Shown here one piece after another: positions 42,191 to 58,421 of a stretch of 64,000 nucleotides of DNA (positions are counted from its first letter, which is position 1; every line of letters starts with the position of its first letter). The DNA lies in assembly GCF_012027615.1 (NCBI RefSeq), contig NZ_SNUT01000001.1:186001-250000 (forward strand), written 5' to 3'. The DNA comes from Thermococcus sp. 21S7 (GTDB taxonomy: Archaea; Methanobacteriota_B; Thermococci; Thermococcales; Thermococcaceae). The translations under genes were made by a program, and so were the position numbers. The notes beneath the pieces were generated by a model. It was not told the origin of the DNA, did no database searches, and worked only from the letters and a program-made list of their open reading frames with translations.

Positions 42191-44137
42191 ATGGCGAAGG
42201 TTACCGACATGGTTTTGTGGGACAAGCCCGGGGAGAAGGTCATACTCCTCGGCAACCAGGCCATAGCGAGGGGTGCCCTGGAGGCCAACATAGCCGTTTT
42301 TGCGGCCTATCCCGGAACCCCCAGTTCAGAGCTTACCGATACGATGGCGATGGTGGCGAAGAAGGCAGGAGTCTACATGGAGTACTCCACCAATGAGAAG
42401 GTCGCCTTTGAGACCGCCCTTTCCGCGGCATGGAGCGGCCTCAGGGCCATGACGGCCATGAAGCACGTCGGACTGAACGTCGCGGCAGATACATTCATGA
42501 GCGCCGTCGGAATGGGCGTTGAGGGCGGATTCGTCATAATGGTCGCCGACGACCCGAGCATGTGGAGCAGCCAGAACGAGCAGGACACCAGGGTTTACGC
42601 GAAGTTCGCCAACGTTCCGGTTCTCGAACCCAGTGACCCGATGGAAGCCAAGGAAATGACGAAGTACGCCTTCGATCTGAGCGAAAAGTTCAAGCACTTC
42701 GTCATCCTGAGGACGACCACCAGAACGTCTCACGCCAGGGGAGACATCGTCCTCGGAGAGCTGCCAGAGGAGATAAAGCAGGGCAAGAGGAAGTTCGGCG
42801 AGTTCAAGAAGGACCCGAGCAGGTTCGTCGACATTCCGGCACACTCAAGGCGCTTCCACCCGCAGATACTTGAGAAGATAGAGAAGATCCGCGAGGAGCT
42901 CAACGAGTGCCCGTTCAACTGGATAGAGGGCGACGAGAGCGCCAAGGTCGGTATCATCGCTCCGGGACTTGCATACTCATACGTGAAGGAGGCCCTTCAC
43001 TGGCTCGGCGTCGAGAACGTAAAGGTCCTCAAGCTCGGAACCCCGTTCCCGGTTCCCTATGGCCTGCTTGAGAAGTTCCTCGACGGTCTTGAGAAGGTTC
43101 TCATCGTTGAAGAGCTTGAGCCGGTCGTTGAGGAGCAGGTCAAGACCTGGGCCTACGACAAGGGTCTGAAGATCCCGATCCACGGAAAGGACCTCGTGCC
43201 GAGGGTTTACGAGATGACCACCAGAAGGGCAGTCGAGGCCATAGCCAAGTTCCTCGGCCTTGAGACCCCGGTGAACTTCGAGGAGCTCGACGAGAAGTAC
43301 GAGAAGGTTAAGGGAATGGTTCCGCCGAGGCCGCCGAGCCTCTGTCCAGCCTGTCCGCACAGGAACACCTTCTACGCCATAAAGAAGGCCGCCACGCCGC
43401 GCGCCATATTCCCGAGCGACATCGGCTGTTACACCCTCGGTGTCCTCCCGCCGCTCAAGGCGGTTGACACGACAGTCGCGATGGGAGGTTCAATCGGTGT
43501 CGCCCACGGCCTCAGCATAGCCCTCAACGGCTCCGTTGCTGAGGACGAGCACAAGACCGGCAAGGAGAAGAAGGTCGTCGTGGCAACGATAGGGGATTCG
43601 ACGTTCTTCCACACCGGCCTTCCCGCCCTGGCCAACGCGATCTACAACCGCTCCAACGTCCTCATAGTCGTCGTCGACAACCTCGTCACGGCAATGACCG
43701 GCGACCAGCCGAACCCGGGAACCGGCGACACCCCGCACGGACCCGGCAAGCAGATAAAGATCGAGGAGGTCGCCAAGGCCCTCGGCGCCGACTTCGTCGA
43801 GGTCGTCGACCCGTACGACATCAAGGCCACCGTCGAGACCATGAAGAGGGCCCTCCAGGTCGAGGGAGTGAGCGTCGTCGTCACCAGGCGCGTCTGTGCC
43901 CTCCACAGGATAGGAGAGCTCAGGAGGGCCAGGATACAGTGGCCCATCTACCAGGTCAACGAGGAGAAGTGTACCGGCTGTAAGGTCTGTATAAACGCCT
44001 ACGGCTGTCCGGCAATCTACTGGGACGCCGAGAGCGGTAAGGCCAAGGTTGACGAGCTCATGTGCTGGGGCTGCGGCGGATGTGCGCAGGTCTGTCCGTT
44101 CGACGCCTTTGAGAAGGTCAGGGAGGGAGAGATATGA
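42191..44137 (+). CDS. iorA: Indolepyruvate ferredoxin oxidoreductase alpha subunit
   Basis: A 648-residue subunit with pyrimidine and TPP-binding domains ([31 protein letters not shown]) and a C-terminal ferredoxin domain with [14 protein letters not shown] and [12 protein letters not shown] (two [4Fe-4S] clusters). It oxidatively decarboxylates aryl pyruvates from Trp, Tyr and Phe to aryl-acetyl-CoA and reduces ferredoxin. The product is a substrate for the upstream synthetase; iorB overlaps its stop. Confidence 0.95.
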
Positions 44138-44742
44138 AGGAGTACAACATCGTTATCACCGGAGTTGGCGGCCAGGGAATCCTCACCGCCGCCAACCTTC
44201 TCGGCTGGGCCGCCCTCCGCGCCGGCCACAAGGTCAGGATGGGAGAGGTCCACGGAATGAGCCAGCGCTTTGGTTCGGTCATCGCCTACGTCCGCTTTGG
44301 AGAGGAGGTTTACGGCGCGATGGTCCCCGAGGGGAAGGCCGACGTCATCCTCTCCTTCGAGCCGGTCGAGGCGCTCCGCTACATCAACTACCTCAAGAAG
44401 GGCGGCCTTGTCTTCACGAACGCCAGGCCGATACCGCCGGTTCAGGTTTCGATGGGCCTGGCCACCTATCCGAGCCTCGACGAGATAAAGAAGGTCGTCG
44501 AGGAGGACTTCCAGGCCAAGTTCATGGCCTTCGACGCCGAGGACCTCGCGGTCAAGGCCGGCCACGTGATAACGACCAACGTCGTCCTCATAGGCGCGCT
44601 GACCCAGACGCCCGGCTTCCCGCTCTCGGCGGAGCACGTCAAGGAGGTCATCCGCGTCAGCGTCCCGCCGAAGGCCGTCGATGTGAACATGAAGGCCTTC
44701 GACCTCGGTGTCCAGGCCGCAAAAGAGATGCTGGGGCTCTGA
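44134..44742 (+). CDS. iorB: Indolepyruvate ferredoxin oxidoreductase beta subunit
   Basis: A 202-residue gamma/C-domain-like subunit with [20 protein letters not shown] and [19 protein letters not shown], as in Thermococcus IorB. ATG overlaps the iorA stop (ATGA). It completes the heterotetramer. T-rich sequence after the stop (CACAATTTTTATTAATTT) probably ends this operon and also serves the next promoter. Confidence 0.95.
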
Positions 44743-44798: not shown

Positions 44799-46412
44799 GT
44801 GGAGTGCATAGAAGGGGATGTAATAACTTCCACCAAAAGCGGATGCTGGGCATTTTCAGACGATGAACGATGGTACCTCTTTGAATGGGTCGACTACCTC
44901 ATCAGAATTGACGCGGATGAGGTCTTTATCGGCAAGGCAAAGGCAAGAAAACTGAAGAACGGGTCATTCCTGGTGTCAATCGGCAATTTTATCGGGGACA
45001 CCGAAGTAGTGGGAATCAAAAATGGAGAAATCTGTTTTAAACGCCCAGCAAAGGTCCTCTCCATCAAACTCTCAAAGATGTACCCCAAAAGGTTCTCGTC
45101 TTTAGACGGCCACTGGGTGGAGCGGCTCGCGGAGGTTCAGGACTCATTTATAGAGAGCCTCACGGGGGACGTTGTAAGGTACTCAATCAGCATGCCCTTC
45201 CAGCTGGAATCACCAACGGCTTTCACGGTCATGGAGAGCGATGAGCCCATCAACGAACTCTTTGCGTATCACTACCTCCGCACAAACGGTGAACGAATCA
45301 TCGGGGCCTTTGAAACGGTAACGCATCGCATGAAGAGAGAGCTGGTGGTGGAGGAGGAATGGATGAGGCCCCATGAGATCGATGAGGTAACTCCCGAAAC
45401 GCTCCTATCCATTGCCCAGCACCCCGAATACCTCGCTCCCGCGGGAGGAGACGTTTTGCTCCGGAAACACCTCGATGGCTACATCCCAACGAGGGTTATG
45501 GGCTTTCGGCGGTACGAGAGCGCCGATACGAAGGAGAATCGCTTTGTCAAATATTTTCTCAACATGCTCGTTGAATGGAGCGAGCGCGTCGTTGAGGCCT
45601 TTGAAAACAACCCCCCGGCCGAACTGAACTCCATTAAGGAACTCCTCAAAGAGCTCGAGTTCATTAAAAGCGACGGGGTCTGGGAAGACGTTGGGGAGAT
45701 GACGCTCTTCCCGTACACCTCACAGACGCTTTTGAAGGGCGACGGCTACCGCGACCTGCTTGAGCTTTACAGGGAGTTCACATCCTACGTTCCGTTCTTT
45801 GAGGAAGTGAAGAGGGCAGTAGACAGCAGGGACGTAGCGAAGCTTTACGAGTACTGGGCTTTCTTCAGGCTCGTGGAGGAACTTGGTGAGGTCCTTGGAG
45901 AGAAGAGACTCAGAATTGTCGTCACACTCGCTGGAGAAATCTCAGAAAGGGGAGACGTTTACGCCCAGTTCGACAACGGCTGGCGGCTCTACTACAACAA
46001 GCGGCTGACCCCCGGGAAGTGGAGCTACTCCGTAACGCTGAGGCCGGACTTCTCACTTTTCACAGGCAATCCAAGTAGCAGAGGTACACGGCTCGTGGGA
46101 GTCTTCGACGCCAAGTTCAAGCTTGATGCCGTGGATGAAAACAGAGAAATTGAAAATTTCGATGAACTGGACGAGAACGCCGAGAAAACCGGGAGATACG
46201 AAACGTGGGCAAAGCTGGAGGACATCTACAAGATGCACACCTACAGGGACGCGTTAGGATGCAGGTTTGCGGTGGTGGTTTATCCGGGAAGGAAGAGCGT
46301 GTTTTTTGATGCGAAAACTGGTAAACATGAGGACATATCGCTGGAATCGGCAATCTTGGACGGAATTGAAGGGGTTGGTTACTTGAGTTTTGTTCCGGGG
46401 GTGATGGAATGA
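44799..46412 (+). CDS. McrC-like protein: DUF2357 with PD-(D/E)XK nuclease domain (PDDEXK_7)
   Basis: A 537-residue protein starting at GTG 44799. The N-terminal part resembles DUF2357; the middle contains the RVMGFRRYESADTKENRFVKYFLN segment; the C-terminal nuclease has RPDFSLF (near residue 413) and VFDAKFKLD (near 436), the D and DxK of PDDEXK_7. The next gene encodes an McrB-like ATPase with ATGA overlap, so the pair forms a modification-dependent restriction or related defence complex. The upstream iorB belongs to core metabolism, so this gene marks the edge of the accessory island. Confidence 0.85.
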   Translation: MECIEGDVITSTKSGCWAFSDDERWYLFEWVDYLIRIDADEVFIGKAKARKLKNGSFLVSIGNFIGDTEVVGIKNGEICFKRPAKVLSIKLSKMYPKRFSSLDGHWVERLAEVQDSFIESLTGDVVRYSISMPFQLESPTAFTVMESDEPINELFAYHYLRTNGERIIGAFETVTHRMKRELVVEEEWMRPHEIDEVTPETLLSIAQHPEYLAPAGGDVLLRKHLDGYIPTRVMGFRRYESADTKENRFVKYFLNMLVEWSERVVEAFENNPPAELNSIKELLKELEFIKSDGVWEDVGEMTLFPYTSQTLLKGDGYRDLLELYREFTSYVPFFEEVKRAVDSRDVAKLYEYWAFFRLVEELGEVLGEKRLRIVVTLAGEISERGDVYAQFDNGWRLYYNKRLTPGKWSYSVTLRPDFSLFTGNPSSRGTRLVGVFDAKFKLDAVDENREIENFDELDENAEKTGRYETWAKLEDIYKMHTYRDALGCRFAVVVYPGRKSVFFDAKTGKHEDISLESAILDGIEGVGYLSFVPGVME

Positions 46413-48715
46413 GCTTCACAAAAGAAGATGCCGAGAACCTTCTGGAAGAGGTCCGGAGGGAGTTCCTGGGAAAAGTCAAAGAAGAATCTTTCAAGCAGAC
46501 TAAAATTAGGTACTTCGATGACCATCGGATTGTAGAAATCAAATTTGACCTGTGGCGCAGATACATGAACGGGAAGGAGTACGGAATATCGTACATGTGG
46601 ACGGTTTACTTAAGAACCCAGAAGATTAGGTACGGGCTTGCCGTTTCCTGCTCCTCCACAGACGCCAGCGAGAGAGTGTTAACCGAACTGCTCGGGAAAG
46701 ACGCGATTGAATCTCTGGAGGATAAAGGCTTCTCCATCATAAGGTTCGACCGCAGGGTAATGCTCGGAAGAGAGCTACCCCTAGATGCCTTTGATGAAAC
46801 TCAAAAGGAAGAAAGCGTGCGTCTGATGGCGAGCGTGCACGCACTTATCGGAGACAGTATCGCTACTCTCCGGGGGGCGTTATGTTTCAACACAACAGAT
46901 GACCCCTTAGTCGTGGCACTACGGGACATGAAAGCCCGTTACTGGGAGGAATGGAAGAATAACGGAGAACCACTGATTCAAAAGGCCCGGGAAAACGTTA
47001 TTAGGTTCGCCAAAGGCGAATCACAAGAATTGAACATCCCCTCAGACATTTCGGGAGATGCCGGACGGTTACTGTGGTTCGTTGCGGGAGGAGTTAGCGA
47101 CAGAGGGGACCCCGAGGGAATCAGGGAGTTCTTAAGGGCACTGATGGAGGCTTCTCCAGCCGATGCTCTCGGACTCGTGCACGAATACTCCCGTAAAATA
47201 AAAGGAACCAGCATTTTGGGCATCATAAACCTGGCGGCGCTGGTTTATCCCGAGGAACTCATGCCCCTGTGGGGCAGTGATAAGGAAACCAGAGGCATCT
47301 TAAATCCCACAAGCTCTAAGTTGTTGGGGCTCAAGAAGAAAGCATCAAAGCTTAAGCTTGATGAATACGAAAATCTGCGCGACAGAATAAAATACGCCGC
47401 CGAAGAGATTGGGGCATCAAATCTGTTTGAGGTGGCGTTTTATCTAATGAGGATGAGCAAGAACAAACTGCAGACCGTGTCATACAAGGAAAAGCACATA
47501 TTACAGACTTATTTGTTAAATGACTATCTCTCTTTGCGGGGCTACCGCTATCCCCAACACCTCGTCTCCCAGTTCTACACCGCCCTCAAAACCAAGGGCT
47601 TCGTAATCCTCTCCGGCCTCACGGGCACAGGTAAAACAAAGATCGTTCAGGAGCTGGCGAGGCTTCTGGATTATTCAAAGAGAAACTTCCTGTTCCTATC
47701 GGTTCGCCCTGACTGGCGTGATTCCAAACCCCTGCTCGGCTACTACAACCCCCTGACGGGAGGATACCATAAAACCAGCCTTCTGAAGTTCATCATGAAA
47801 GCCATCAAAGACTACGAAGACAACAGAGGCAATGCTACCCCATATTTCGTAATCCTCGATGAGATGAACCTCGCTCATGTTGAGTACTACTTCGCCGACT
47901 TCCTCAGTGTTCTCGAGAGCGGAAGGGATGGAAGCGGCTTCACACGGGAGGGAATAAAGCTCCACGACAGCGAGGAAATCGAGGTTTTTGAAGGCATTCC
48001 TTGGGAGCTGAAGCTTCCACCCAACCTCTACATCATCGGGACGGTGAACATGGACGAGACCACTTACTCGTTCAGCCCTAAGGTTCTCGACAGGGCTTTC
48101 ACGGTGGAGTTCCACGATGTCGAGCTTGAGGGATACCCACCGGGGAGTGGGGAAAGCAGACTGCCCAACGAAGCCGTTGAAGCTCTAAGGGACTCAATAC
48201 TGGAAGACCTCCGCGGTAAGAGCGGCCAGTTCCTCGCGCGTTCGAAAGAGGGGATAAACGAAGCGGTTAAGGAGCTAAGGGACGCTAAAAACGGGGAGTA
48301 CTGGAGGATTCTCACTGAACTGAACAAAGCCCTCGAGCCATACGACATGCACTTCGGCTACCGCGTCGTTGATGAGATTGCACTGTTTGTCCAGAGCGCC
48401 AAGGAGAGTTGGGAAAACGGAATCGTCGAGTTTGAGAGTGACGACGAAATCTTCGACCTTGCACTTCTCATGAAGGTTCTTCCCAAGTTCCACGGGAACA
48501 GAAAGAAGCTCGAAGAACCACTAAAGGCCGTTTTGGGACTGTGCCTCTCAGAGAACGCAGGAATTGACGTCCGGGAGCTCAGGAGAGAGGAGGTTATGAA
48601 CCTCCTCAAAAACTGGGAAACCCAAAGGGAGAACTTCCGCTTCAAGCACACGGCCAAAAAAGCCCTCCGCATGCTCCGCCAGCTATACGAGATAGGCTTC
48701 GCGAGCTTCAGCTAA
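46409..48715 (+). CDS. McrB-like AAA+ ATPase/GTPase
   Basis: A 768-residue protein. Residues 1-380 form a unique N-terminal region without a recognised base-recognition fold. The AAA+ domain follows: Walker A SGLTGTGKTK (near 403), Walker B YFVILDEMNLAHVEYYFADF (near 480), and the McrB-type segment GTVNMDETTYSFSPKVLDRA (near 547), in place of the NTAD motif of E. coli McrB. It should assemble as a ring driving the nuclease encoded upstream. The N-terminal domain may decide the target. Confidence 0.85.
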   Translation: MSFTKEDAENLLEEVRREFLGKVKEESFKQTKIRYFDDHRIVEIKFDLWRRYMNGKEYGISYMWTVYLRTQKIRYGLAVSCSSTDASERVLTELLGKDAIESLEDKGFSIIRFDRRVMLGRELPLDAFDETQKEESVRLMASVHALIGDSIATLRGALCFNTTDDPLVVALRDMKARYWEEWKNNGEPLIQKARENVIRFAKGESQELNIPSDISGDAGRLLWFVAGGVSDRGDPEGIREFLRALMEASPADALGLVHEYSRKIKGTSILGIINLAALVYPEELMPLWGSDKETRGILNPTSSKLLGLKKKASKLKLDEYENLRDRIKYAAEEIGASNLFEVAFYLMRMSKNKLQTVSYKEKHILQTYLLNDYLSLRGYRYPQHLVSQFYTALKTKGFVILSGLTGTGKTKIVQELARLLDYSKRNFLFLSVRPDWRDSKPLLGYYNPLTGGYHKTSLLKFIMKAIKDYEDNRGNATPYFVILDEMNLAHVEYYFADFLSVLESGRDGSGFTREGIKLHDSEEIEVFEGIPWELKLPPNLYIIGTVNMDETTYSFSPKVLDRAFTVEFHDVELEGYPPGSGESRLPNEAVEALRDSILEDLRGKSGQFLARSKEGINEAVKELRDAKNGEYWRILTELNKALEPYDMHFGYRVVDEIALFVQSAKESWENGIVEFESDDEIFDLALLMKVLPKFHGNRKKLEEPLKAVLGLCLSENAGIDVRELRREEVMNLLKNWETQRENFRFKHTAKKALRMLRQLYEIGFASFS

Positions 48716-48862
48716 TTCTTTGCCCTTTTTATCTTATGCATCTTTCATGCTCCTGCTGGTCGAAGCTGATACGAATTGGTAGGAGTTTTCCGGGAGCAAA
48801 ATCATAAGTAGACACAAAAACATTATTACTCTCAATCACCAAGCTACATATTGGTGTCCCCC

Positions 48863-50392
48863 ATGAAAGTGGTTGTTTATGACGGAGCCGACACCATCGG
48901 TGGGTCAAAAATCTACATAGAGGAGAACGGGAACGGGCTTTTCTTGGACTTTGGGATGAATTTTGCAAGATACTCCCGGTACTACGAGGAATTCATAAGC
49001 GAACGGACTGCAAGGGGGATTTACGACCTCTGGCGCCTTGACCTGATACCAAAGCTCAACATTTATCGGGCGGACTTAATCCCGAGAGATCTTGCGAGCG
49101 AAGTTGTCCGATACCCAAAAGTCCCGGTCAATGCGGTCCTAATAAGCCACGCTCACCTCGACCACGTTGGTAACATCGCTCTTCTCGATGAGAGCATCCC
49201 AATTGTCGGCTCCCCGACAACGCTCGTGATTCTCAAGGCCCTGAACGACACTTCCAGCGGAGGGAGCCACTTTGGAATTGAGCTTCCCTATTACAAAATC
49301 AAGAAAAAGAAAGACTCGGAAGGCTACATTCTGGAAGTCGACAGAAAAGCTGATTACCCTTCAAGAAGTGTCATTCTTACCGAAAAAGCAGGAGAACTCG
49401 ATAAATTTCTGTTTTATTCTGCAAAAACCAAGAAGAAAATCATTCCAAACGATGTGAAGATCCTTGACGGGGAAGACCTTGGCTTTGAGGTTAAAGCATT
49501 CAGCATTGACCACTCAATCTACGGTGCCACCGCCTACATAGTGGAAGGGGATGTCAGTTTGGCTTACACCGGAGATTTTAGACTCCATGGGAAAAACGGC
49601 AACGAAACGAGGAAATTTATCAAGGTGGCAAAGAGTGCGAGCGTCCTGATTACCGAGGGTACCCGGGTAGGCCGGGAAGAGCACGAGAACGTCTCGGAGC
49701 AGGAGGTCTACGAGAACGCCCTAAAGATCGTTGAAGAAGCCAAGGGGCTTATAATAGCGGACTTCTCGGCGAGGAACTTTGAGAGGCTTGAGAGCTTTAA
49801 GGAAATCGCAGAGAAGACTGGAAGGGAGTTAGTGGTCACGGCAAAAGATGCCTACTTCCTGTACGCCCTGAAGATTGTTAACGGCGTTGACCGGCTTAAT
49901 GGTCTGAAAATCTACGAGAACTTCAAGGCCAGCCGACAAAAGTGGGAAGAACTCGTGGTCTGGAGCAACTACTCCGAGTACTACGTCTCCCCCTTCGAGA
50001 TCAGAGAGAATCCAGAAAATTACATCCTTTGCTTCTCGTTTTACGACATGCCACACCTGCTAGACATAATGCCCAACAGCGGGACTTACATCTACTCCTC
50101 AAGCGAGGCCTTCGGGGAGGAACAGGAGTTCAGCTTTTTGAGGCTCTGGAACTGGCTGAAGTACTTCCGGTTTGAAGTCCGCGGGTTCAGGGTGGCCGGA
50201 GATGGTAGGCCGGTCTTTGAGAAAGGTCTGCATGCTTCAGGACACATCTCGAGGGAGGAACTGATAGAGGTTATTAACGAGATCGACCCGGACTACATCG
50301 TTCCAGTTCATACAGAGAACCCATGGTGGTTTAAGGATAACTGGGGTGAAAAGGCCATTGTTCTGAAAAACGGAGAGAGCTGGGAGGTCTGA
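48863..50392 (+). CDS. Beta-CASP metallo-beta-lactamase nuclease (RNase J-like)
   Basis: A 509-residue protein with MBL motif 2 HAHLDH (residues 96-101), motif 4 AYTGDFRLHG, and beta-CASP C-terminal elements ASGHISREEL and YIVPVHTE. This predicts a Zn-dependent RNase or DNase with 5'-end activity. Its middle is divergent from standard archaeal RNase J. It lies about 150 bases after the McrB-like gene on the same strand, with a likely own promoter; a link to the McrBC-like pair is by proximity. Confidence 0.8.
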   Translation: MKVVVYDGADTIGGSKIYIEENGNGLFLDFGMNFARYSRYYEEFISERTARGIYDLWRLDLIPKLNIYRADLIPRDLASEVVRYPKVPVNAVLISHAHLDHVGNIALLDESIPIVGSPTTLVILKALNDTSSGGSHFGIELPYYKIKKKKDSEGYILEVDRKADYPSRSVILTEKAGELDKFLFYSAKTKKKIIPNDVKILDGEDLGFEVKAFSIDHSIYGATAYIVEGDVSLAYTGDFRLHGKNGNETRKFIKVAKSASVLITEGTRVGREEHENVSEQEVYENALKIVEEAKGLIIADFSARNFERLESFKEIAEKTGRELVVTAKDAYFLYALKIVNGVDRLNGLKIYENFKASRQKWEELVVWSNYSEYYVSPFEIRENPENYILCFSFYDMPHLLDIMPNSGTYIYSSSEAFGEEQEFSFLRLWNWLKYFRFEVRGFRVAGDGRPVFEKGLHASGHISREELIEVINEIDPDYIVPVHTENPWWFKDNWGEKAIVLKNGESWEV

Positions 50393-50448
50393 GTATAAAT
50401 TTTGTTGCTCGCTCCTTTCTCCCCGATACTTGTCAACTTATCTTTCAA

Positions 50449-50784
50449 TCACTTCTCACAACAACAGGTTGACCTTAGTATGTCTGCTGCTACGTGGAGA
50501 ACCCCTGAGATTAGCAGGATCAGCAGTAGCAGTATTAAGAGGGAGGGGATTAGTGGCAATAACAGTATTACCATTATTATCAACGCTATGACGAGCCAAA
50601 TCTTTACGATTTTTTCATCTATCTCTTTGTTAATAGCCCAGTATATTGGTAAGAACAACAACAGGAGCGCCGCTATAGTTGCGATCGTTGTCCCCAACAC
50701 CACTCTGCCGAACACCCCACCAATCACAAAACCCAATAACAACATCCCCAACAGCCGCGTCAAGACTCTTTTCTTGCCAGCCAT
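50449..50784 (-). CDS. Small multi-pass membrane protein
   Basis: This 111-residue protein (ATG 50784, GGTGG upstream) consists of three to four hydrophobic segments with Leu/Ile-rich repeats (LLILLLLILLISG) and a C-terminal CCCEK. The family is not recognised. It converges on the beta-CASP gene and is followed upstream by the ADP-ribosylglycohydrolase on the same strand, so it may belong to that group. In defence islands such small membrane proteins are sometimes effectors; this is speculation here. Confidence 0.6.
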   Translation of the reverse strand: MAGKKRVLTRLLGMLLLGFVIGGVFGRVVLGTTIATIAALLLLFLPIYWAINKEIDEKIVKIWLVIALIIMVILLLPLIPSLLILLLLILLISGVLHVAADILRSTCCCEK

Positions 50785-50835
50785 GTTTCCACCTTCATGG
50801 CCCATTGCCATTTTAGAACCGATTCTATCATTTTG

Positions 50836-51963
50836 TCATTCTAATCTTTGATGCATGCCGTTCGCAAGTATCTCCTCAGTTTGGTTTAGCGCGTCCAAGA
50901 ACTTGTGAGGTAACATGTTCCCACCAAACAACGGCTCCACTAAAGAGGGAGGAAACTCTGTGATGCCATGAAGCGCGCCCGAGAGGTATCCTACTATCGC
51001 CCCAATGGTGTCGCTGTCCTTGCTGTTTAAGACAGCGGTGGAGAGAGCTTTGTCCAGGTTGTTTCCATATAGGATCATAGTGTAGAGGGCCATGGGCACG
51101 GTCTCGAGAAGGTATGCCCCCGAGCCGACGGCTTTGTTCATATCAAACAGTGTCCAGCCGTCCCGAAGTGCCATCTCCAATACCCTATCCACAAAGTCCC
51201 ACGCGGGCCCGGAGTATCTGTTATTGAACTTGCCAAAACGCGGCCTGTAGACCGAGGAGTCCCCTTCGACTTCCCTCGCAATTTCAACATATTCGTCTTT
51301 CCACCACTCTGGTTCAGGGGGCTTATTTTTGGTGAGCAGTTTCCAGAGGAGGTTAGTGAACGATACCGCTGAAGAGATCGCTAACCTATCGTTGTGGGTG
51401 AGACAGGTCATGATAACGGAGTCGCTAAATGTGCTGTGTGACTCGCTTAGGAATGGTGGTATCACGACTGGGGAGAGCTTCATTAACGCCCCGTTACCGG
51501 CACTTTCGACTCCCGCCAAGTACCAAGGCATGTTCAGCTCCTTATACCTCTTGATGAACTTTTTAACGCTCCTCCCAATTCCAATTATTCTCTCCTTTGT
51601 AAACCGGTCTGCCAGTTTTTTGGGGTTAAACCATCCTTCCTCCAAAAATACTTCCAAAGACAAGAATGTCAGCTGTGTGTCATCCGTGATGTGGGAGGTA
51701 GGAAAGTATCTGGATAACACCCTCATTTCTGGTTCCTCTGGTGGTTTACCTTCTATCGGCGCGCCTAGAGCGTCGCCTATCGCGACCCCCAAGAGCATGC
51801 CCTTAATCTTGCTTAGGGGCACATTGCTAGGTGGCCTTAGTTTTTTGTAGAGTACCTCAGATTGTTCGGCGTTTATTACCCCCGCGTCGAACAGGGCGTC
51901 CATTATGCACAGGTTGTCCCCGCACTCTGACAGTTTTTGGTCCGGCCTGTTGGTGCCCTCCAT
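50836..51963 (-). CDS. ADP-ribosylglycohydrolase family protein, first copy
   Basis: A 375-residue protein. After a 50-residue N-terminal extension come the DraG/ARH motifs KIKGMLLGVAIGDALGAPIE, ITDDTQLTFL (metal ligands) and SKDSDTIGAIVGYLSGAL. The family removes ADP-ribose from proteins or nucleic acids with two Mg2+. It is about 50-70 residues longer than the second copy at 54632-55582. It is encoded opposite to the second copy. ATG follows GGTGTGAAAA. Confidence 0.88.
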   Translation of the reverse strand: MEGTNRPDQKLSECGDNLCIMDALFDAGVINAEQSEVLYKKLRPPSNVPLSKIKGMLLGVAIGDALGAPIEGKPPEEPEMRVLSRYFPTSHITDDTQLTFLSLEVFLEEGWFNPKKLADRFTKERIIGIGRSVKKFIKRYKELNMPWYLAGVESAGNGALMKLSPVVIPPFLSESHSTFSDSVIMTCLTHNDRLAISSAVSFTNLLWKLLTKNKPPEPEWWKDEYVEIAREVEGDSSVYRPRFGKFNNRYSGPAWDFVDRVLEMALRDGWTLFDMNKAVGSGAYLLETVPMALYTMILYGNNLDKALSTAVLNSKDSDTIGAIVGYLSGALHGITEFPPSLVEPLFGGNMLPHKFLDALNQTEEILANGMHQRLE

Positions 51964-52008
51964 TTTTCACACCCTTAGGTTCATAACCCTCTACTGCTTG
52001 TGATCAGC

Positions 52009-52794
52009 TTACAGAGCTCTCTGCCCAGATGGGGGACTTGGAACTTCTAAAAATAGATAGGGGATCAGTTCACTACAGATGTCTCTCTGTCCGATCTGCC
52101 AGACAAGGCTGTCTAGGTGGATCATATTTACTCCCGGCTGTGTCTTCTTGATCTCTTTGAGGACTTCGTCCCAAAAGTGTCTTACTTCCTCGTCCTTGAG
52201 GTCTCTCCCGACGAGTTTTGCTGTTAGTCGCTTTACCCTAACGTCCACCGGTATGGGGATTCCTGAAAAATCAAAGTCCGTGTGCCCCGTGAGAGTGAGG
52301 ACTAGACCCAGTGTTTTCATGGCAAAGACTATCGTTTTATCATTTCTTTTTTGCCCCATGACCCTCGATAACTCTACCCATATTCTTTTAAAGCCCTTTG
52401 AGACGTCCTCAGGGCTTGACATCCACAGTTCCCGGGCTAGATGGCTGTCGAGGAACTTATCAATCCGTTTTAGTTTGGCGTTTTGAAGTCGTTCCTTCAT
52501 ATAGAACTGGCTGAGGAGAGTTTTCATGTCCTCTAGAGTTTCGGGGATTGGGTTCTCTTTGATCAACCTGTGAAGTGGTGGCCAGTATTTTTTCTCCGCC
52601 GGCCCCTTTAACTGGTAGTCATTTAACGCGGCCATGACCATCAGGGTCGCAAATTTCCCAAACCCATACCTTGGGAGTTGGTCTAGAAGCCTAGCTTCCG
52701 GTTCATTAGCCACTATTCTGTCCCAGACTTCAAGAGGAATCTTGGAAAGGACTTTTCCAACTTCTTGGACCCTAAGAAATGAAAAAGAGTCCAA
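52009..52794 (-). CDS. AGOG-type DNA glycosylase/AP lyase
   Basis: A 261-residue protein from TTG 52794, chosen because AGGAGGGG sits six bases upstream; a longer frame to 52899 would overlap the preceding gene by 100 bases. It has the AGOG elements GFGKFATLMVMAALNDYQL, NDKTIVFAMKTLGLV (catalytic Lys of DKTIVF), IPIPVDVRVKRLT (Asp) and HLDSLVWQIGQ. AGOG excises 8-oxoguanine via a helix-hairpin-helix fold. Here it lies among defence-like genes, so substrate specificity may differ. Confidence 0.75.
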   Translation of the reverse strand: MDSFSFLRVQEVGKVLSKIPLEVWDRIVANEPEARLLDQLPRYGFGKFATLMVMAALNDYQLKGPAEKKYWPPLHRLIKENPIPETLEDMKTLLSQFYMKERLQNAKLKRIDKFLDSHLARELWMSSPEDVSKGFKRIWVELSRVMGQKRNDKTIVFAMKTLGLVLTLTGHTDFDFSGIPIPVDVRVKRLTAKLVGRDLKDEEVRHFWDEVLKEIKKTQPGVNMIHLDSLVWQIGQRDICSELIPYLFLEVPSPPSGQRAL

Positions 52795-52796
52795 GA

Positions 52797-53090
52797 TTAA
52801 CCCCTCCTGAATATTACTTTTACGACCTTTCTGTTCCGAACCTCCGGATAAGCTTTCCAGCCCGCAGCGAGCCAGCCTTTTCTCGCTTGGACGTGCCATT
52901 TTTTCTCGCTGTTCTCATTGGCCCACCAAGCAGCGTACTTGTAGGCAGATTTTGGTAAACTAAACTTCTCGTCAAGCGTTTTCAGTTTGTTTTCGAGCTC
53001 TGCGGGGGAAATTTCTATCCTGTCTTTATCTGTCTGGAGCTGGAGCCAGGCCTTCAACACACCATATTTGCTTTCGCGGATGTTTTCCAT
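52797..53090 (-). CDS. DUF7662-like small protein
   Basis: A 97-residue protein from ATG 53090 (GAGGTGG upstream) matching the DUF7662 pattern: FSLPKSAYKYAAWWANE, WHVQARKGWLAAGW and a terminal VVKVIFRRG. The family is mainly found in bacteria and archaea beside mobile or defence genes; function unknown. It precedes the AGOG-like gene by two bases and shares its ribosome-site region, implying co-translation and a joint task. The minus-strand promoter is probably ATCTTAAATAG near 53130. Confidence 0.7.
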   Translation of the reverse strand: MENIRESKYGVLKAWLQLQTDKDRIEISPAELENKLKTLDEKFSLPKSAYKYAAWWANENSEKKWHVQARKGWLAAGWKAYPEVRNRKVVKVIFRRG

Positions 53091-53235
53091 ATTAAGCCAC
53101 CTCATATATACTGTGGCATTTTGACTATTTAAGATTTTCTATTATTGAGTTTATTTCAAACTCAAGACAGAAAGGGTTAAATACTCAGGACACATAAACA
53201 GTTGATGAAATAACAACAAAACCGGGGGATTGCCC

Positions 53236-54069
53236 ATGGAGATACTGTTTACAAGGGAATTCTGGGAAGAACGGGAAGAGCACAGAAAGAAGATACTGCA
53301 CACAGTCCAGGAGTTTATAACGAACTCCACTAGAGACAAACTGACCCAGCTCGTAGGGGAGATCTGGGCGCTAAGGTTTACGTACAAGGACTTGGATTGG
53401 TACATAGAAAAGAGGGTTCTTAAGTACAGTACTCCGGAAGACCTTGCAAAGGCGTTTAAGATACTGATAGATGAAAGCCTGCCTCTGTCAGAGCGTCTTA
53501 AAATTAAAATTCCCGGCTTTGGCTCGGGCGCAGTCTCAGAAATCCTGTTTTCGCTGAACCCCAACAAATACCCAGTATACAATCGAAAGTTCATCATAGG
53601 CGCGACAAAACTTGGGTACAAGATAGATCTCCTTAAGCACACAATTCGGTTGACCCCAGAGACCCTAAACGAGCTTATTAGAGTACACGAACAGATACTT
53701 GCCGACTTTTCAGGCCTCAGGGACGAGATAATAAAAAGGACAGGGATTGAAGTTCCAAAATTTGACTTTACTGACGGGATGCTGTGGAAAGTCGCTCAAG
53801 ACGAGATCTCCGTCAAAGAACTCTTGAATTGGAAACGCCCCACGAAGCTAATGGCGCTTGAGGATGTTGACACGGTCTTGAAGGCTCTGGAGAAGGGCAT
53901 CTCGAAATATGCTGAGCTCCTCAATGAGGGCGAACACGAAGAGGCTGCCCTCGAGAAGGCCGCTTTTTACACGGAGGGAGTGCTTGAGGCCTATGGTGTT
54001 GACCTGAAAGAAGTATCCGACCTCTTCAGGGCGCTGGAGGAACTGCTGGGTAGAATTGTCAAAAAATGA
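53236..54069 (+). CDS. Unrecognised protein with helix-hairpin-helix-like motif
   Basis: A 277-residue mostly helical protein from ATG 53236 (GGGGGAT upstream). It holds IPGFGSGAVSEILFSLNPNK (residues about 93-112) followed by YPVYNRK, resembling helix-hairpin-helix DNA-binding units found in DNA glycosylases and in N-terminal regions of some McrB-like proteins. No catalytic domain is seen. It is divergent from the DUF7662/AGOG pair and is followed by the DUF6884 gene, suggesting a shared regulation from the intervening region. Confidence 0.65.
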   Translation: MEILFTREFWEEREEHRKKILHTVQEFITNSTRDKLTQLVGEIWALRFTYKDLDWYIEKRVLKYSTPEDLAKAFKILIDESLPLSERLKIKIPGFGSGAVSEILFSLNPNKYPVYNRKFIIGATKLGYKIDLLKHTIRLTPETLNELIRVHEQILADFSGLRDEIIKRTGIEVPKFDFTDGMLWKVAQDEISVKELLNWKRPTKLMALEDVDTVLKALEKGISKYAELLNEGEHEEAALEKAAFYTEGVLEAYGVDLKEVSDLFRALEELLGRIVKK

Positions 54070-54084
54070 ATTTGGGTGGTAGAC

Positions 54085-54555
54085 ATGCCGAAATGTTTGT
54101 GTATTGCAACGTGCGGTTCAAAGAAAATCTGGAGCGTTGACCCCAACATTCCAAAGTACGTGCCGGCTAAAGATGCGTATGTAGGTCCCTTATCGAAGAA
54201 AACGATAGAATATGCCCAGACGTTCCACCCTAAGAGCTATGTGATCCTCTCCGCCAAGTACGGGTTTTTGCTCCCGGACGAAAAGATCTCGGACTATGAC
54301 GCATACTGCAGCAAGAACCCCGCAATAACGATCCAGGAACTGAAAAAACAGGCTGCTGAAAAGAAAGTGGATGGCATTGCACTGAAAGACTACAACAAAG
54401 TGATAGTTATTGGTGGCAGATGTTACTGCGACTGGGCCAAAAAAGTCTTTGGGGAGGATAAGGTTGAGTGCCCACTGGCAGGCCTGCCGATAGGCAAAAT
54501 GCTCCAGCGGCTTAAAACGGCTATAACTTCAAGAATCCCCTTAGTCAAGTGTTGA
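54085..54555 (+). CDS. DUF6884 family protein
   Basis: A 156-residue protein from ATG 54085 with family motifs CIATCGSKKIW, YVPAKDAYVGPLSKK, YVILSAKYGFLLPDEKIS and VIVIGGRCYCDWAKKVF. DUF6884 has a Rossmann-like fold and occurs in mobile and defence contexts; the conserved Lys and Asp/Tyr residues suggest nucleotide or nucleic acid processing, without proof. It follows the previous gene by 15 bases. Confidence 0.75.
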   Translation: MPKCLCIATCGSKKIWSVDPNIPKYVPAKDAYVGPLSKKTIEYAQTFHPKSYVILSAKYGFLLPDEKISDYDAYCSKNPAITIQELKKQAAEKKVDGIALKDYNKVIVIGGRCYCDWAKKVFGEDKVECPLAGLPIGKMLQRLKTAITSRIPLVKC

Positions 54556-54631
54556 GAGTTTAATATTCTATTTATTTCCAGTGATTAAAAAGCACAAAAG
54601 GGATACTGATAGTTAGTTGGAGTGTGACATT

Positions 54632-55582
54632 ATGAAAGCCGAACCCAAACTCGTATCACGTCTCAAGGGAGGCCTTTGGGGCGTCATCGTTGGAGACGCC
54701 TTTGGTTTTCCCTTCCAGTTTACCCCTAAAGACACGATGGAAAGGAAGTACTCCAACCCCGCCGAGATCCCAATGAAAAATGGGCTATGGAGTGATGACT
54801 CCTCTTTAACCCTAGCAACTGCTCATGCACTAACAGAGGGATATCACCTTGAGAAGATCGCGGAGAACTTCCTCCGCTGGTATCAGGATGGCGAATTCAC
54901 GCCAAAGGGTTACGCGTTTGATGAAGGCATTACAAGTTCACGGGCAATAGAACGCATCGCGGAAGGAGTTCCTCCGCTTGAGGCCGGGGGTAATGGGGAA
55001 CGGGACAACGGCAACGGTTCGCTTATGAGGATTCTGCCAGCAACGTATTACACTTACTTTAAAATGGGCCCTCTGGAAGAGAAACTCTGGCTAATCCACG
55101 AGGTCTCGATGATAACTCATGCCCATCCCCGCTCACTGGTCGGCTGTGGGATTTATTCACTAGTAGTCTGGAACCTCCTGGATGGCATGGACAAGTTCGA
55201 GGCGTACTACAAAGCAATACGAGCAACGGAAGAACTCTACTCAGAGGAACCCTTTGCCAAGGAGCTCACGCATTATGAGAGGGTTCTGAGCGGAAAAATT
55301 CACGAGATCGGTAGGGACAAGATCAGGGGAAGCGGCTACGTCGTCCACACGTTGGAGGCTGCTTTGTGGGCCTTCCTGAGAAACGAAAGCTTTGCTGACG
55401 CAATAAAAGAAGTGGTCTCCCTTGGGGAGGACACAGACACAACCGGAGCAGTCACTGGTGGCCTGGCCGGAACATACTACAGGATTGATAACATTCCCGA
55501 AGACTGGCTTGAGAAAATCGAGACACGGGAGTATGTTGAAGAGATAATCAACGCCTTTATCGATAGCTTGTTAGGCGATTGA
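54632..55582 (+). CDS. ADP-ribosylglycohydrolase family protein, second copy
   Basis: A 316-residue DraG/ARH protein from ATG 54632 with GGLWGVIVGDAFGFPFQF, LWSDDSSLTLAT and SLGEDTDTTGAVTGGLAG. It is shorter than the first copy and not its close duplicate. It most resembles the decayed fragment at 56873-57130. It probably cleaves ADP-ribose from protein or nucleic-acid adducts. A preceding TTG-based start at 54617 is less likely. Confidence 0.88.
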   Translation: MKAEPKLVSRLKGGLWGVIVGDAFGFPFQFTPKDTMERKYSNPAEIPMKNGLWSDDSSLTLATAHALTEGYHLEKIAENFLRWYQDGEFTPKGYAFDEGITSSRAIERIAEGVPPLEAGGNGERDNGNGSLMRILPATYYTYFKMGPLEEKLWLIHEVSMITHAHPRSLVGCGIYSLVVWNLLDGMDKFEAYYKAIRATEELYSEEPFAKELTHYERVLSGKIHEIGRDKIRGSGYVVHTLEAALWAFLRNESFADAIKEVVSLGEDTDTTGAVTGGLAGTYYRIDNIPEDWLEKIETREYVEEIINAFIDSLLGD

Positions 55583-55583
55583 G

Positions 55584-55740
55584 ATGAGTGTGGAGCTAAT
55601 AAAGACAGTAGCCAGCTTCTCGGTTTGGTTGGGGCTTTTATTTTTTCCTTTTGATACTAGTACGACTCTTCTGGGACGCGTTGATAGAGTTTCTGGCAGA
55701 GGTTTATGATGAAGTGAAGAAAAGGAGGAGAGTCCGATGA
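55584..55740 (+). pseudogene. Possible small membrane protein with frameshift
   Basis: From ATG 55584 one frame reads MSVELIKTVASFSVWLGLLF, a membrane helix, then stops at 55709. A second frame from about 55660 reads RLFWDALIEFLAEVYDEVKK and stops at 55740, overlapping the next ATG (ATGA). Removal of one base near 55660-55665 joins them into a protein of about 50 residues. This could be a recently broken small gene or an over-reading; no family is known. Confidence 0.35.
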
Positions 55741-56813
55741 ATAAGCTGGCTAGGTTTGTAAGGCCCGAGGGCATTACGGTTGAGGAATTCCTAGCTGAGG
55801 CGGGCGAACACTTGGGGATAGGAGGAGTTGAAGATTTCCTGAGGGAACTTGAGGCGGCGTACGAGGGCACATGGCAACGGGAAAAGCTCCTCTATGCTGA
55901 CGGCTACATAAAGTTGCTCACCAGCATTGCCGAGTACTACAGGAAAAAACACGAAGAATCCAATAAAGACGAGCGCAAAAGGCTCTTGAATGAACTTATG
56001 GAAGCTTTTGGCGACTTTACCTACAAAAAGAGAGCAGCTGAGTACTACATCAATGCCGCGAGCGTCGCAACTTCAGTCTCCCTGATTTACTTCCCTCAGC
56101 AGAATTACCCGGAAGAGGCTGAGAGGTACCTGAAGCTAGCAGTGGAACTTGAAGAAAGGGCCATGGAGCTGGGCGTTGTCCCGAGGTACTACGCGATAGC
56201 ACTGAACAATCTTGGGACTCACTATTACGAAACCAACCGCTCTGAAGAAGCGCTCCCCGTGCTCAAAAAGGCGTTGGAATACGCTGAGAACCCAAAAGAG
56301 AGGGGGCTCGTTCTCCACAACCTCTCACTGACTTACGCTGACCTGGGAATGAAAAAGGAGGCAGTTAATTGCATGGTGAAGTCAATTTGCATCCACTACT
56401 CAACACAGCACGAGTTTGGGGATGTTTCGCTTTATGACAAGGACATTAACCAGGTAGTTGAAATGACCGGCGACGCTGGTACAGATATCTTCGCGTTGGA
56501 AATTGCGCTCGACTTGATTGGAGGGAACTTGAGTGCAGAGAGGGCTAAGAAACTGCTCGAACAGATTGACCGCGATGAATGGCCCCTTACCAATGCTCTA
56601 CTCTCAATCCTGAATGGGAGAGAGCCCGCGTTGTCGAACGAAATAGTCGGATGTGAGAAGCTCCTCAAAGACGTTGCGAAGGCCGTAGGGAACAAAAACA
56701 TAGCAGAACTGGACCGGAAGCGCCGGCAGCAACATCCCTCCCAAGAGGATATATGGAAGCGCTGGATTGACTCCTTGGAAGAGCTCGGACTATACTCAAA
56801 AGAGGAGCTTTGA
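55737..56813 (+). CDS. TPR repeat protein
   Basis: A 358-residue helical protein with tetratricopeptide-like repeats at about residues 95-235 (AAEYYINAASVAT, YPEEAERYLKLAVE, YYAIALNNLGTHYYETNRSE, GLVLHNLSLTYADLGM). It is a scaffold or sensor protein with no enzymatic motif. It begins inside the stop of the preceding short frame. Its neighbours are a second ADP-ribosylglycohydrolase and an ARH remnant; in defence islands such proteins often mediate assembly (inference). Confidence 0.8.
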   Translation: MNKLARFVRPEGITVEEFLAEAGEHLGIGGVEDFLRELEAAYEGTWQREKLLYADGYIKLLTSIAEYYRKKHEESNKDERKRLLNELMEAFGDFTYKKRAAEYYINAASVATSVSLIYFPQQNYPEEAERYLKLAVELEERAMELGVVPRYYAIALNNLGTHYYETNRSEEALPVLKKALEYAENPKERGLVLHNLSLTYADLGMKKEAVNCMVKSICIHYSTQHEFGDVSLYDKDINQVVEMTGDAGTDIFALEIALDLIGGNLSAERAKKLLEQIDRDEWPLTNALLSILNGREPALSNEIVGCEKLLKDVAKAVGNKNIAELDRKRRQQHPSQEDIWKRWIDSLEELGLYSKEEL

Positions 56814-56872
56814 AGCGCCTCTCCCCTTTATTTAGACTGCAAAAAAGAAAGTAAGTTTTTGCCAATTTTTGC

Positions 56873-57130
56873 TGTCCGATAAGGTTCTCGATGAACGCGT
56901 CAATTATTCCTGAAATATTTTCTTGCATCGTTTTTTGGAACCACTCTTCGGGGATGTCTTCACGCCATAGTACGTCCAGCTAATCCGCTCACAACGGCCC
57001 CGGTTGTGTCAGCGTCTTCTCCTAGGGAGACCACTTTCCCTATTGCATCAGCAGAGCTTTCGGTTCTCAAAAATGCCCAGAGGTTGCTTCAAGGGTGTGA
57101 ACAGAGCAGCCACTCCCTCTGGGCATCATC
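56873..57130 (-). pseudogene. Remnant of a third ADP-ribosylglycohydrolase
   Basis: On the minus strand the fragments RGSGCSVHTLEA, WAFLRTESSADAIGKVVSLG-EDADTTGAVVSGLAG and DIPEEWFQ...ISGIIDAFIENLIG appear in order, in different frames, matching the C-terminal 85 residues of the intact protein encoded at 54632-55582 (RGSGYVVHTLEA..., VVSLGEDTDTTGAVTGG...). At least two frameshifts separate the pieces. The N-terminal two thirds are missing. The gap from 57131 to 57270 shows no clear gene. Confidence 0.8.
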
Positions 57131-57278
57131 AAGATATCCTTCGGTATACACCACCATACTGTTCACATTTTTGACATGTTCAATTTAGTCCTTTGGTAAA
57201 CGTGACTAATATACATTCTCTCCAATGGATAATGCCTCTCCGGCTTCAGCTGACCCTCTATTTTTCGAAACCCTTATA

Positions 57279-57316
57279 ACTTACCCCGGGGTAAGTAACT
57301 TACGGTGGGGTAAGTT
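57279..57316. repeat. Pair of CTTACCCC-type palindromes at the 5' end of the ATPase gene
   Basis: ACTTACCCCGGGGTAAGT (57279-57296) is a perfect 18-bp palindrome. AACTTACGGTGGGGTAAGTT (57297-57316) directly abuts it, with 7-bp arms. Centres are 19 bp apart. TATA element CTTATAAC (57273-57280) touches the first palindrome and the TTG start lies at the end of the second, so they cover the promoter and transcription start. Confidence 0.85.
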
Positions 57317-58421
57317 GCTGTTTGACCTCCAACCTAAAACAAGGAAAGAGGACCTGTACGATAGGGAAAGAGAACTTGAGGCGTTTAACGAGGCATTGAA
57401 GCTCGGAGAGAGGCTGGTTCTCATCCTGGGCATACGACGTCTTGGAAAGAGCTCCCTCCTCAATGTTGCGCTCTCAGAGTCAGGCCATCCCTACGCCAAA
57501 ATAGACGTTCGCTCCCTGTACTTCACCCACGGCTCCATTCCGCAGGAAATCCTCGCGAAAAGAATCCTGAGTTCGCTCATCGAATCCATTCCCCCAAGTG
57601 GAAAGCTCAGGCTCGGCATGACGGAGGCACTTTCATCAATCCGGGGAATCCGCCTTTCGGGAGTTCACGTGGAGTTCGAGAAGAAGCCCGACTTAGCTGA
57701 AATCCTTGAAAAGGTGGACTCCTGGGCGGAGAGTGAAGGAAAACGGGTTATCATAGCATTTGACGAGGCCCAGTACCTCCGACTCTCTGGCATACAGTAC
57801 GATGGGCTGATAGCTTATGCCGTTGATAACCTTCCAAACTTAACCTTCGTTCTAACGGGCTCGGAGGTTGGAATGCTCCACGACTTTCTCGGCCTTGATA
57901 ATCCCAAGAAACCGCTTTTCGGCAGGTACGCCAGGGAAATAACGCTGGAGAGATTCAGCCGGGAACGGAGCATTGGGTTCCTGGAAACGGGTTTCAAAGA
58001 GCTTGGAATCGATATAAGCCCTTCGGAGCTCGGACGAGCCGTTTATAAACTCGACGGAATCGTGGGCTGGCTGAGCATGTACGGCTACCTCAGGGGAATC
58101 CGAAAGCTCCCGGAAAGGGATGCCTTGAATGAGCTGTTCCACAGGGCACAGGCTCTGGTATTGGATGAACTTTCCTCCCTGCTTTCACACAGCAGGCGGT
58201 ACGGGCTCATACTGAAGGCCGTCGCCATGGGGAACAAAAGGTGGAGCGATATAAAGGAGTATCTGGAGTTCAAAGCGGGCCGGATAAACGACTCAAAGTT
58301 CTCCAGTCTCCTGAAGAACCTGGTGAAGTACGGCTATCTGAATAAAAGTGCCGATGGGTACATCATTCCCGACCCCATTGTTGTGGAGGTTATCAAGAAA
58401 TCCCAGCTTACCCCCAGGTAA
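57315..58421 (+). CDS. Archaeal ATPase (PF01637/STAND-like AAA+), palindrome-flanked
   Basis: A 368-residue protein from TTG 57315 (GGTGGGG upstream, start LLFDLQPKTRKEDLYDR as in homologues); the longer frame from 57225 would begin before the promoter. Walker A is GIRRLGKSSLL, Walker B VIIAFDEAQYLRLS, sensor VLTGSEVGMLHDFLG, and the C-terminus is a winged helix (IKEYLEFKAGRINDSKFSSLLKNLVKYGY, in part). This Thermococcales-expanded family has unknown roles, perhaps mobile. The stop codon lies inside a third palindrome. Confidence 0.88.
   Translation: MLFDLQPKTRKEDLYDRERELEAFNEALKLGERLVLILGIRRLGKSSLLNVALSESGHPYAKIDVRSLYFTHGSIPQEILAKRILSSLIESIPPSGKLRLGMTEALSSIRGIRLSGVHVEFEKKPDLAEILEKVDSWAESEGKRVIIAFDEAQYLRLSGIQYDGLIAYAVDNLPNLTFVLTGSEVGMLHDFLGLDNPKKPLFGRYAREITLERFSRERSIGFLETGFKELGIDISPSELGRAVYKLDGIVGWLSMYGYLRGIRKLPERDALNELFHRAQALVLDELSSLLSHSRRYGLILKAVAMGNKRWSDIKEYLEFKAGRINDSKFSSLLKNLVKYGYLNKSADGYIIPDPIVVEVIKKSQLTPR

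Follow-up and report, generated by a model that had tools for sequence, protein, structure and literature searches.

What role could an RNase J-like protein play behind a restriction enzyme? The question is raised by a stretch of 64,000 nucleotides from Thermococcus sp. 21S7, here called the window, in which an McrBC-like gene pair is followed on the same strand by a gene for a beta-CASP metallo-beta-lactamase (MBL) protein. The initial annotation of this DNA had suggested that a 5'-end nuclease could degrade the fragments produced by the McrBC-like enzyme. Searches of the open literature found no report of a beta-CASP protein, a metallo-beta-lactamase or an RNase J associated with McrBC. McrB proteins with an NxD signature, in which E or D usually comes next, form a separate branch of which no member had been characterised as of the CoCoNuT census (PMC11090510).

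The McrC-McrB pair

The first gene (44799-46412, forward strand) encodes an McrC-like nuclease subunit with DUF2357 and PDDEXK_7 families above the Pfam cut-off (PF09823, E=3.7e-29; PF04411, E=5.8e-14). Its PD...DxK catalytic motif is complete, and as both RPDF at 415 and FDAKF at 436 (DAK 437-439) are present, the nuclease looks intact. The McrB gene (46409-48715, forward), an AAA_5 family match, overlaps it by 4 nt, McrC first. The AAA+ motor (residues 369-768, 47513-48715, forward) carries Walker A (GLTGTGKT, 403), Walker B (VILDEMN, 481) and, at 547, NMDET, in which the McrB signature is shortened to NxD. These Pfam matches and catalytic and ATPase motifs bear out the proposed McrBC-like pair of a DUF2357/PDDEXK_7 protein and an AAA+ ATPase with NMDET, which is the sole McrBC of the host genome (G000, 2.37 Mb). 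In the PDB, credible sequence relatives of the motor are limited to solved McrB structures; the PADLOC candidate PDC-M26A matches McrB at E=1.6e-51, the best stretch covering only 306-431 of 724.

The pair shares with the type IV McrBC systems of E. coli K-12 and Thermococcus gammatolerans an AAA+ motor with a variable N-terminal reader, a DUF2357-PD-(D/E)XK partner and an overlapping gene pair, but differs in the DUF2357/PDDEXK_7 class of its McrC, an NxD rather than NxxD signature, the gene order C-B and an unrecognised reader domain. With the NxD branch and the CoCoNuTs it has in common the NxD signature followed by E (NMDE) and accessory nucleases in the operon, whereas its McrC nuclease motif is intact, a beta-CASP protein stands in place of HEPN and the host is an archaeon; CoCoNuTs are nearly absent in archaea (PMC11090510). 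A Pfam search of the window neighbourhood found no HEPN gene, and the combination that marks CoCoNuTs, a lost or inactive McrC nuclease with HEPN or another RNase, is not what the window contains. The locus is best explained as a type IV, McrBC-type restriction module from the NxD/DUF2357 branch, dependent on modification or structure of the DNA and predicted to be active in restriction.

An exchanged reader

The N-terminal part of McrB (residues 1-368, 46409-47512, forward) is an exchangeable, presumed target-recognition region, as indicated by an AF2 model and by comparison with a sister locus in genome G034. The two loci are 93% identical in DNA and their McrC proteins 91% identical; McrB residues 369-768 are 92% identical to those of the sister protein encoded at L090, and residues 1-368 are unrelated. 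The presumed reader has thus been exchanged while the motor stayed, so that the target is probably unlike that of the sister locus. A search for full-length relatives of the window reader found them in no more than two other Thermococcales, there too as part of McrB. In keeping with the initial annotation, which had seen no recognised modified-base reader here, neither Pfam nor PDB sequence searches returned a match for the N-terminus, and none of the known reader domains (YTH, EVE, B3 or SRA) gave a family match. The fold prediction that had been suggested for this part of the 768-residue protein, built on 3 sequences, gives a fairly confident alpha/beta domain (1-155), then helices of low prediction quality (157-350), with no significant fold match in the PDB. 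The E. coli McrB DNA-binding domain is among the non-significant matches (E about 0.3), a resemblance that is a lead only. These sister loci, with the same motor and a swapped reader, are a ready natural system for mapping McrB specificity and the target of the reader.

The beta-CASP protein and its arrival

The MBL protein (48863-50392, forward) was identified as a beta-CASP metallo-beta-lactamase of RNase-J type fold by Pfam (Lactamase_B and RMMBL, both above cut-off), motifs and fold match. All of its catalytic motifs, D29, HAHLDH (96-101), H217, D238, E265, H461 (ASGH) and H483 (PVHTE), are invariant in an alignment of 15 relatives, which confirms the earlier description of a complete RNase J-like protein. 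ATG 48863 is a likelier start codon than TTG 48851, since relatives begin at or near the equivalent methionine. The closest solved sequence and fold is EF2904 (PDB 2AZ4), followed by archaeal RNase J, and although confidence in the modelled fold is moderate (pLDDT 68), the family assignment is unambiguous. The protein shares with EF2904 and RNase J the fold and all MBL/beta-CASP motifs, but is only about 20% identical, is without the long C-terminal domain and has an accessory, mobile distribution linked to restriction genes. In the DNA-specific beta-CASP proteins SNM1 and Artemis motif C is without histidine; the window protein has one (H483), and neither SNM1 nor Artemis is among its best 50 fold matches. 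The literature searched reports no activity for any member of this family, and a scan of viral contigs found no relative that would point to a viral origin. The possibility that this is the sole housekeeping RNase J of the genome, which would have spoken against the initial annotation, is ruled out: the host encodes three beta-CASP proteins, and aCPSF1 (L001) and RNase J (L002) lie elsewhere.

The site itself is a hot spot. The indolepyruvate ferredoxin oxidoreductase genes iorA-iorB (42191-44742, forward) form its conserved left border, and in 14 loci, the window included, a DUF2357-McrC lies 0.6-0.7 kb downstream of iorA. In the window the MBL gene stands after McrBC, not before it, across a gap of 147 nt from McrB and with no translational coupling. 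It arrived with an 8.5-kb cassette inserted between McrB and an ATPase gene at about 48722-57242 (blastn against G034 breaks at 48721/57243), with a GC content of 0.48 compared to 0.548 for the window. In G034 the McrB stop directly adjoins the archaeal ATPase gene, with 93% DNA identity on both sides of the break, and McrC and the ATPase gene are also close together in several further genomes, which indicates that the window gained the insert rather than that G034 deleted it. No perfect direct repeats of at least 10 bp were found at the insert junctions; an imperfect GCTTCAGCTRA repeat was seen there by eye.

Downstream of the MBL gene, the insert holds on the reverse strand a small hydrophobic protein with no Pfam family (50449-50811), an ADP-ribosylglycohydrolase family protein (50836-51963; PF03747, E=7e-46), an AGOG-like DNA glycosylase family protein (52009-52899; PF09171, E=9e-28) and a DUF7662 protein (52797-53105; PF24698, E=1.8e-6). 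On the forward strand follow an uncharacterised protein whose gene accompanies MBL in locus L072 too (53230-54069), a DUF6884 protein (54076-54555; PADLOC candidate PDC-M57A, 9e-18, and weakly DpdC), a second ADP-ribosylglycohydrolase family protein related to the pTBMP1/PYG1 cassette gene discussed below (54617-55582; PF03747, E=9e-71) and the TPR protein of that cassette (55737-56813). At the right edge lies a reverse-strand remnant of a third ADP-ribosylglycohydrolase gene (56963-57088, translation GKVVSLGEDADTTGAVVSGLAG), so that one insert holds two such genes and the remnant of another. Beyond it is the archaeal ATPase_2 gene with an MCM-type winged helix (57225-58421, forward), which directly follows McrB in several relatives. 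At its 5' end (57278-57316) we observed a near-palindromic pair, AACTTACCCCGGGGTAAGT and ACTTACGGTGGGGTAAGTT, and blastn aligns this stretch to a copy in inverted orientation close to where the ATPase_2 gene of G034 ends; an operator or a mobile-element end is possible.

Linkage to McrC across archaea

The survey covered 94 Thermococcales genomes, with linkage defined as an MBL gene within 10 kb of an McrC. MBL occurs in 28 of the 94 genomes, DUF2357-McrC in 33-34 and PF10117-McrC in 37. Fourteen of the 26 placed MBL genes lie at most 10 kb from an McrC, compared to 0.39 expected under uniform placement and to none of 40 type I methylases taken as a control. As near-duplicates are present among the linked loci (L080/L081, L074/L076, L084/L085), these are not 14 independent events; in the MBL tree the linked or unlinked state switches at least 11 times, with both McrC classes intermixed. 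Seen from McrC, MBL is within 10 kb of 9 of 35 DUF2357-McrC genes (74% of these loci are without it) and of 7 of 45 PF10117-McrC genes. Most McrBC loci lack MBL, which makes it an optional accessory and rules it out as an obligate partner. The linkage in relatives that the initial annotation had proposed to look for is therefore real but facultative. Nor do the data support a link specific to the pair in the window: MBL joins PF10117 as well as DUF2357 loci, it belongs in the window to the 8.5-kb cassette, and the genome of the nearest relative of the window pair, G034, has no MBL. McrC class does predict the McrB motif, DUF2357 going with NxD and PF10117 with NxxD, without exception among the McrB proteins whose motif could be located.

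MBL is mostly the first gene of the linked operons, on the same strand and with 3-nt gaps or overlaps. This tight geometry, to McrB, McrC or the gene c7, is seen in L066, L069, L073, L074, L076, L079, L084 and in Archaeoglobi. The gene order is MBL-c7-McrB-McrC in L066, L075 and L131 (and in L117 as far as the contig end), MBL-McrC-McrB in L073 and MBL-McrB-McrC in L074, L076 and L142. Among 59 Archaeoglobi genomes, MBL lies within 6 kb in 6 of 10 full PF10117 McrC loci, or in 7 with L120, where MBL and then an McrB-like gene stand at the contig end. A Thermoplasmatales locus (L146) reads MBL-TPR-McrB-McrC(DUF2357).

MBL has other partners as well. In Archaeoglobi, as in L142 and L131, an RmuC-family gene lies upstream of McrBC and shares its last 4 nt with the start of MBL; in some loci, e.g. 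L131, a CARF-like HFX_2341/winged-helix protein precedes RmuC. A Lokiarchaeota locus (L122, 7995-16121) encodes on one strand MBL, HerA, a NurA-like protein that does not reach the Pfam cut-off, a calcineurin-type phosphoesterase and then an SMC/Rad50-type ATPase, a run that is read here as HerA-NurA-Mre11-Rad50. Proteins of family c37 were observed near MBL in L076, L079, L071 and L072, one of them in fusion with a methyladenine glycosylase domain of Tag-like type. Counting the AGOG-like genes as well, DNA glycosylases accompany MBL repeatedly.

In L068, L071, L072, L079 and the Thermococcus barophilus plasmid pTBMP1 (L184), MBL is followed by a cassette of a hypothetical protein (c24), a class II amidotransferase, GGCT, an ADP-ribosylglycohydrolase and a TPR protein, which resembles a small-molecule or base-modification pathway within a restriction island. 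pTBMP1 carries on one strand HSDR_N-MBL-hypothetical-amidotransferase-GGCT-ADP-ribosylglycohydrolase-TPR-DUF2357-McrB, and its part from amidotransferase to TPR corresponds to module III of PYG1, a genomic island in Pyrococcus yayanosii (PMC5126054). PYG1 and pTBMP1 alike combine McrBC with the TPR, ADP-ribosylglycohydrolase, GGCT and class II amidotransferase genes (PMC5126054). pTBMP1 also has MBL, as the window does, there heading the run, whereas PYG1 has no MBL among its listed genes (PMC5126054). The window cassette differs from both in being rearranged, with glycosylase and DUF6884 genes.

Discussion

The MBL protein may be an accessory RNase-J-type nuclease behind the window McrBC, drawn from an archaeal family that has recombined again and again with McrBC operons of both McrC classes and with other DNA-degradation modules; on gene content and neighbourhood we consider this reading as a whole, cooperation with the pair included, about as probable as not. 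As expected from their families, McrB would recognise invading DNA and then translocate, McrC would cut it, and the MBL protein would degrade the resulting nucleic-acid ends, probably 5'-ended DNA strands, so that the cut becomes irreversible. The first part of this scheme, that the McrBC-type pair cuts foreign DNA, is probable from its sequence. In Thermococcus kodakarensis, deletion of two McrBC systems, whose class may differ from that of the window, raises plasmid transformation, which argues that archaeal McrBC restricts DNA (PMC13385129). The second part, degradation of McrBC products, is plausible given the neighbours of MBL in other loci (RmuC, HSDR_N and HerA-NurA-Mre11-Rad50). Because these act on DNA ends, DNA is favoured as the substrate by the neighbourhood, whereas the RNase J type fold and motifs favour RNA, or RNA and DNA both; DNA ends are the inference we favour. 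RNase J itself prefers RNA. Purified aRNase J of Haloferax cleaves both RNA and single-stranded DNA, and its partners RecJ3 and RecJ4 act in DNA damage recovery, so a dual use of MBL is not far-fetched (PMC10470531).

The main rival holds that recombination-prone islands carry MBL and McrBC alike, and that the two come together through insertion into a shared hot spot, with no joint function. The window suits this account, since its MBL came in an insert at iorAB, where DUF2357-McrBC recurs; MBL also occurs at iorAB without McrBC in L065 and L067, and the majority of McrBC loci do without it. It fits less well the tightly packed operons elsewhere, where MBL comes first on the same strand, and type I methylases, which are likewise island genes, show no such linkage. 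Eight linked Thermococcales loci (L068, L069, L073-L076, L080 and L081) lie away from iorA, and the linkage recurs in the operons of Archaeoglobi; for these the iorAB hot spot alone is ruled out as its source, and we regard cohabitation without function as rather unlikely overall.

We give a similarly low probability to the MBL protein acting as an RNase that degrades invader transcripts, or host RNA in an abortive response, beside DNA cutting by McrBC. The RNase J/EF2904 fold, the RMMBL domain and the motif-C histidine would suit such a role, and with the CoCoNuTs there is already a group of NxD McrBC systems for which RNA is the predicted target (PMC11090510), but the window McrC retains its DNase motif and MBL has DNA enzymes (RmuC, HerA-NurA-Mre11-Rad50) as its neighbours in other lineages. 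Somewhat less likely still is that the functional partners of MBL are the genes of the ADP-ribosylglycohydrolase/GGCT/amidotransferase/TPR cassette, which would form a system of its own and simply share a location with McrBC. MBL does head all or part of this cassette with no McrBC nearby in L071, L072 and L077 and upstream of McrBC in pTBMP1, and the same genes are found in PYG1 (PMC5126054); yet many MBL-McrBC operons have none of them save the small c7 (L066, L075, L084), and L073 and L142 have no spacer gene whatever.

The recurrent first position of MBL in McrBC operons of several archaeal groups suggests a helper nuclease for restriction. More tentatively, archaea might possess compound McrBC operons, headed by a beta-CASP nuclease dedicated to them, for a multi-step restriction in which processing by MBL, and not cutting alone, would eliminate the invader, with RmuC, a CARF-like regulator and the ADP-ribosylglycohydrolase/GGCT/amidotransferase/TPR module as optional parts. 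With operons that recur in Thermococci and Archaeoglobi and one example in Thermoplasmata, this beta-CASP family is a testable candidate for finishing off the fragments of archaeal restriction.
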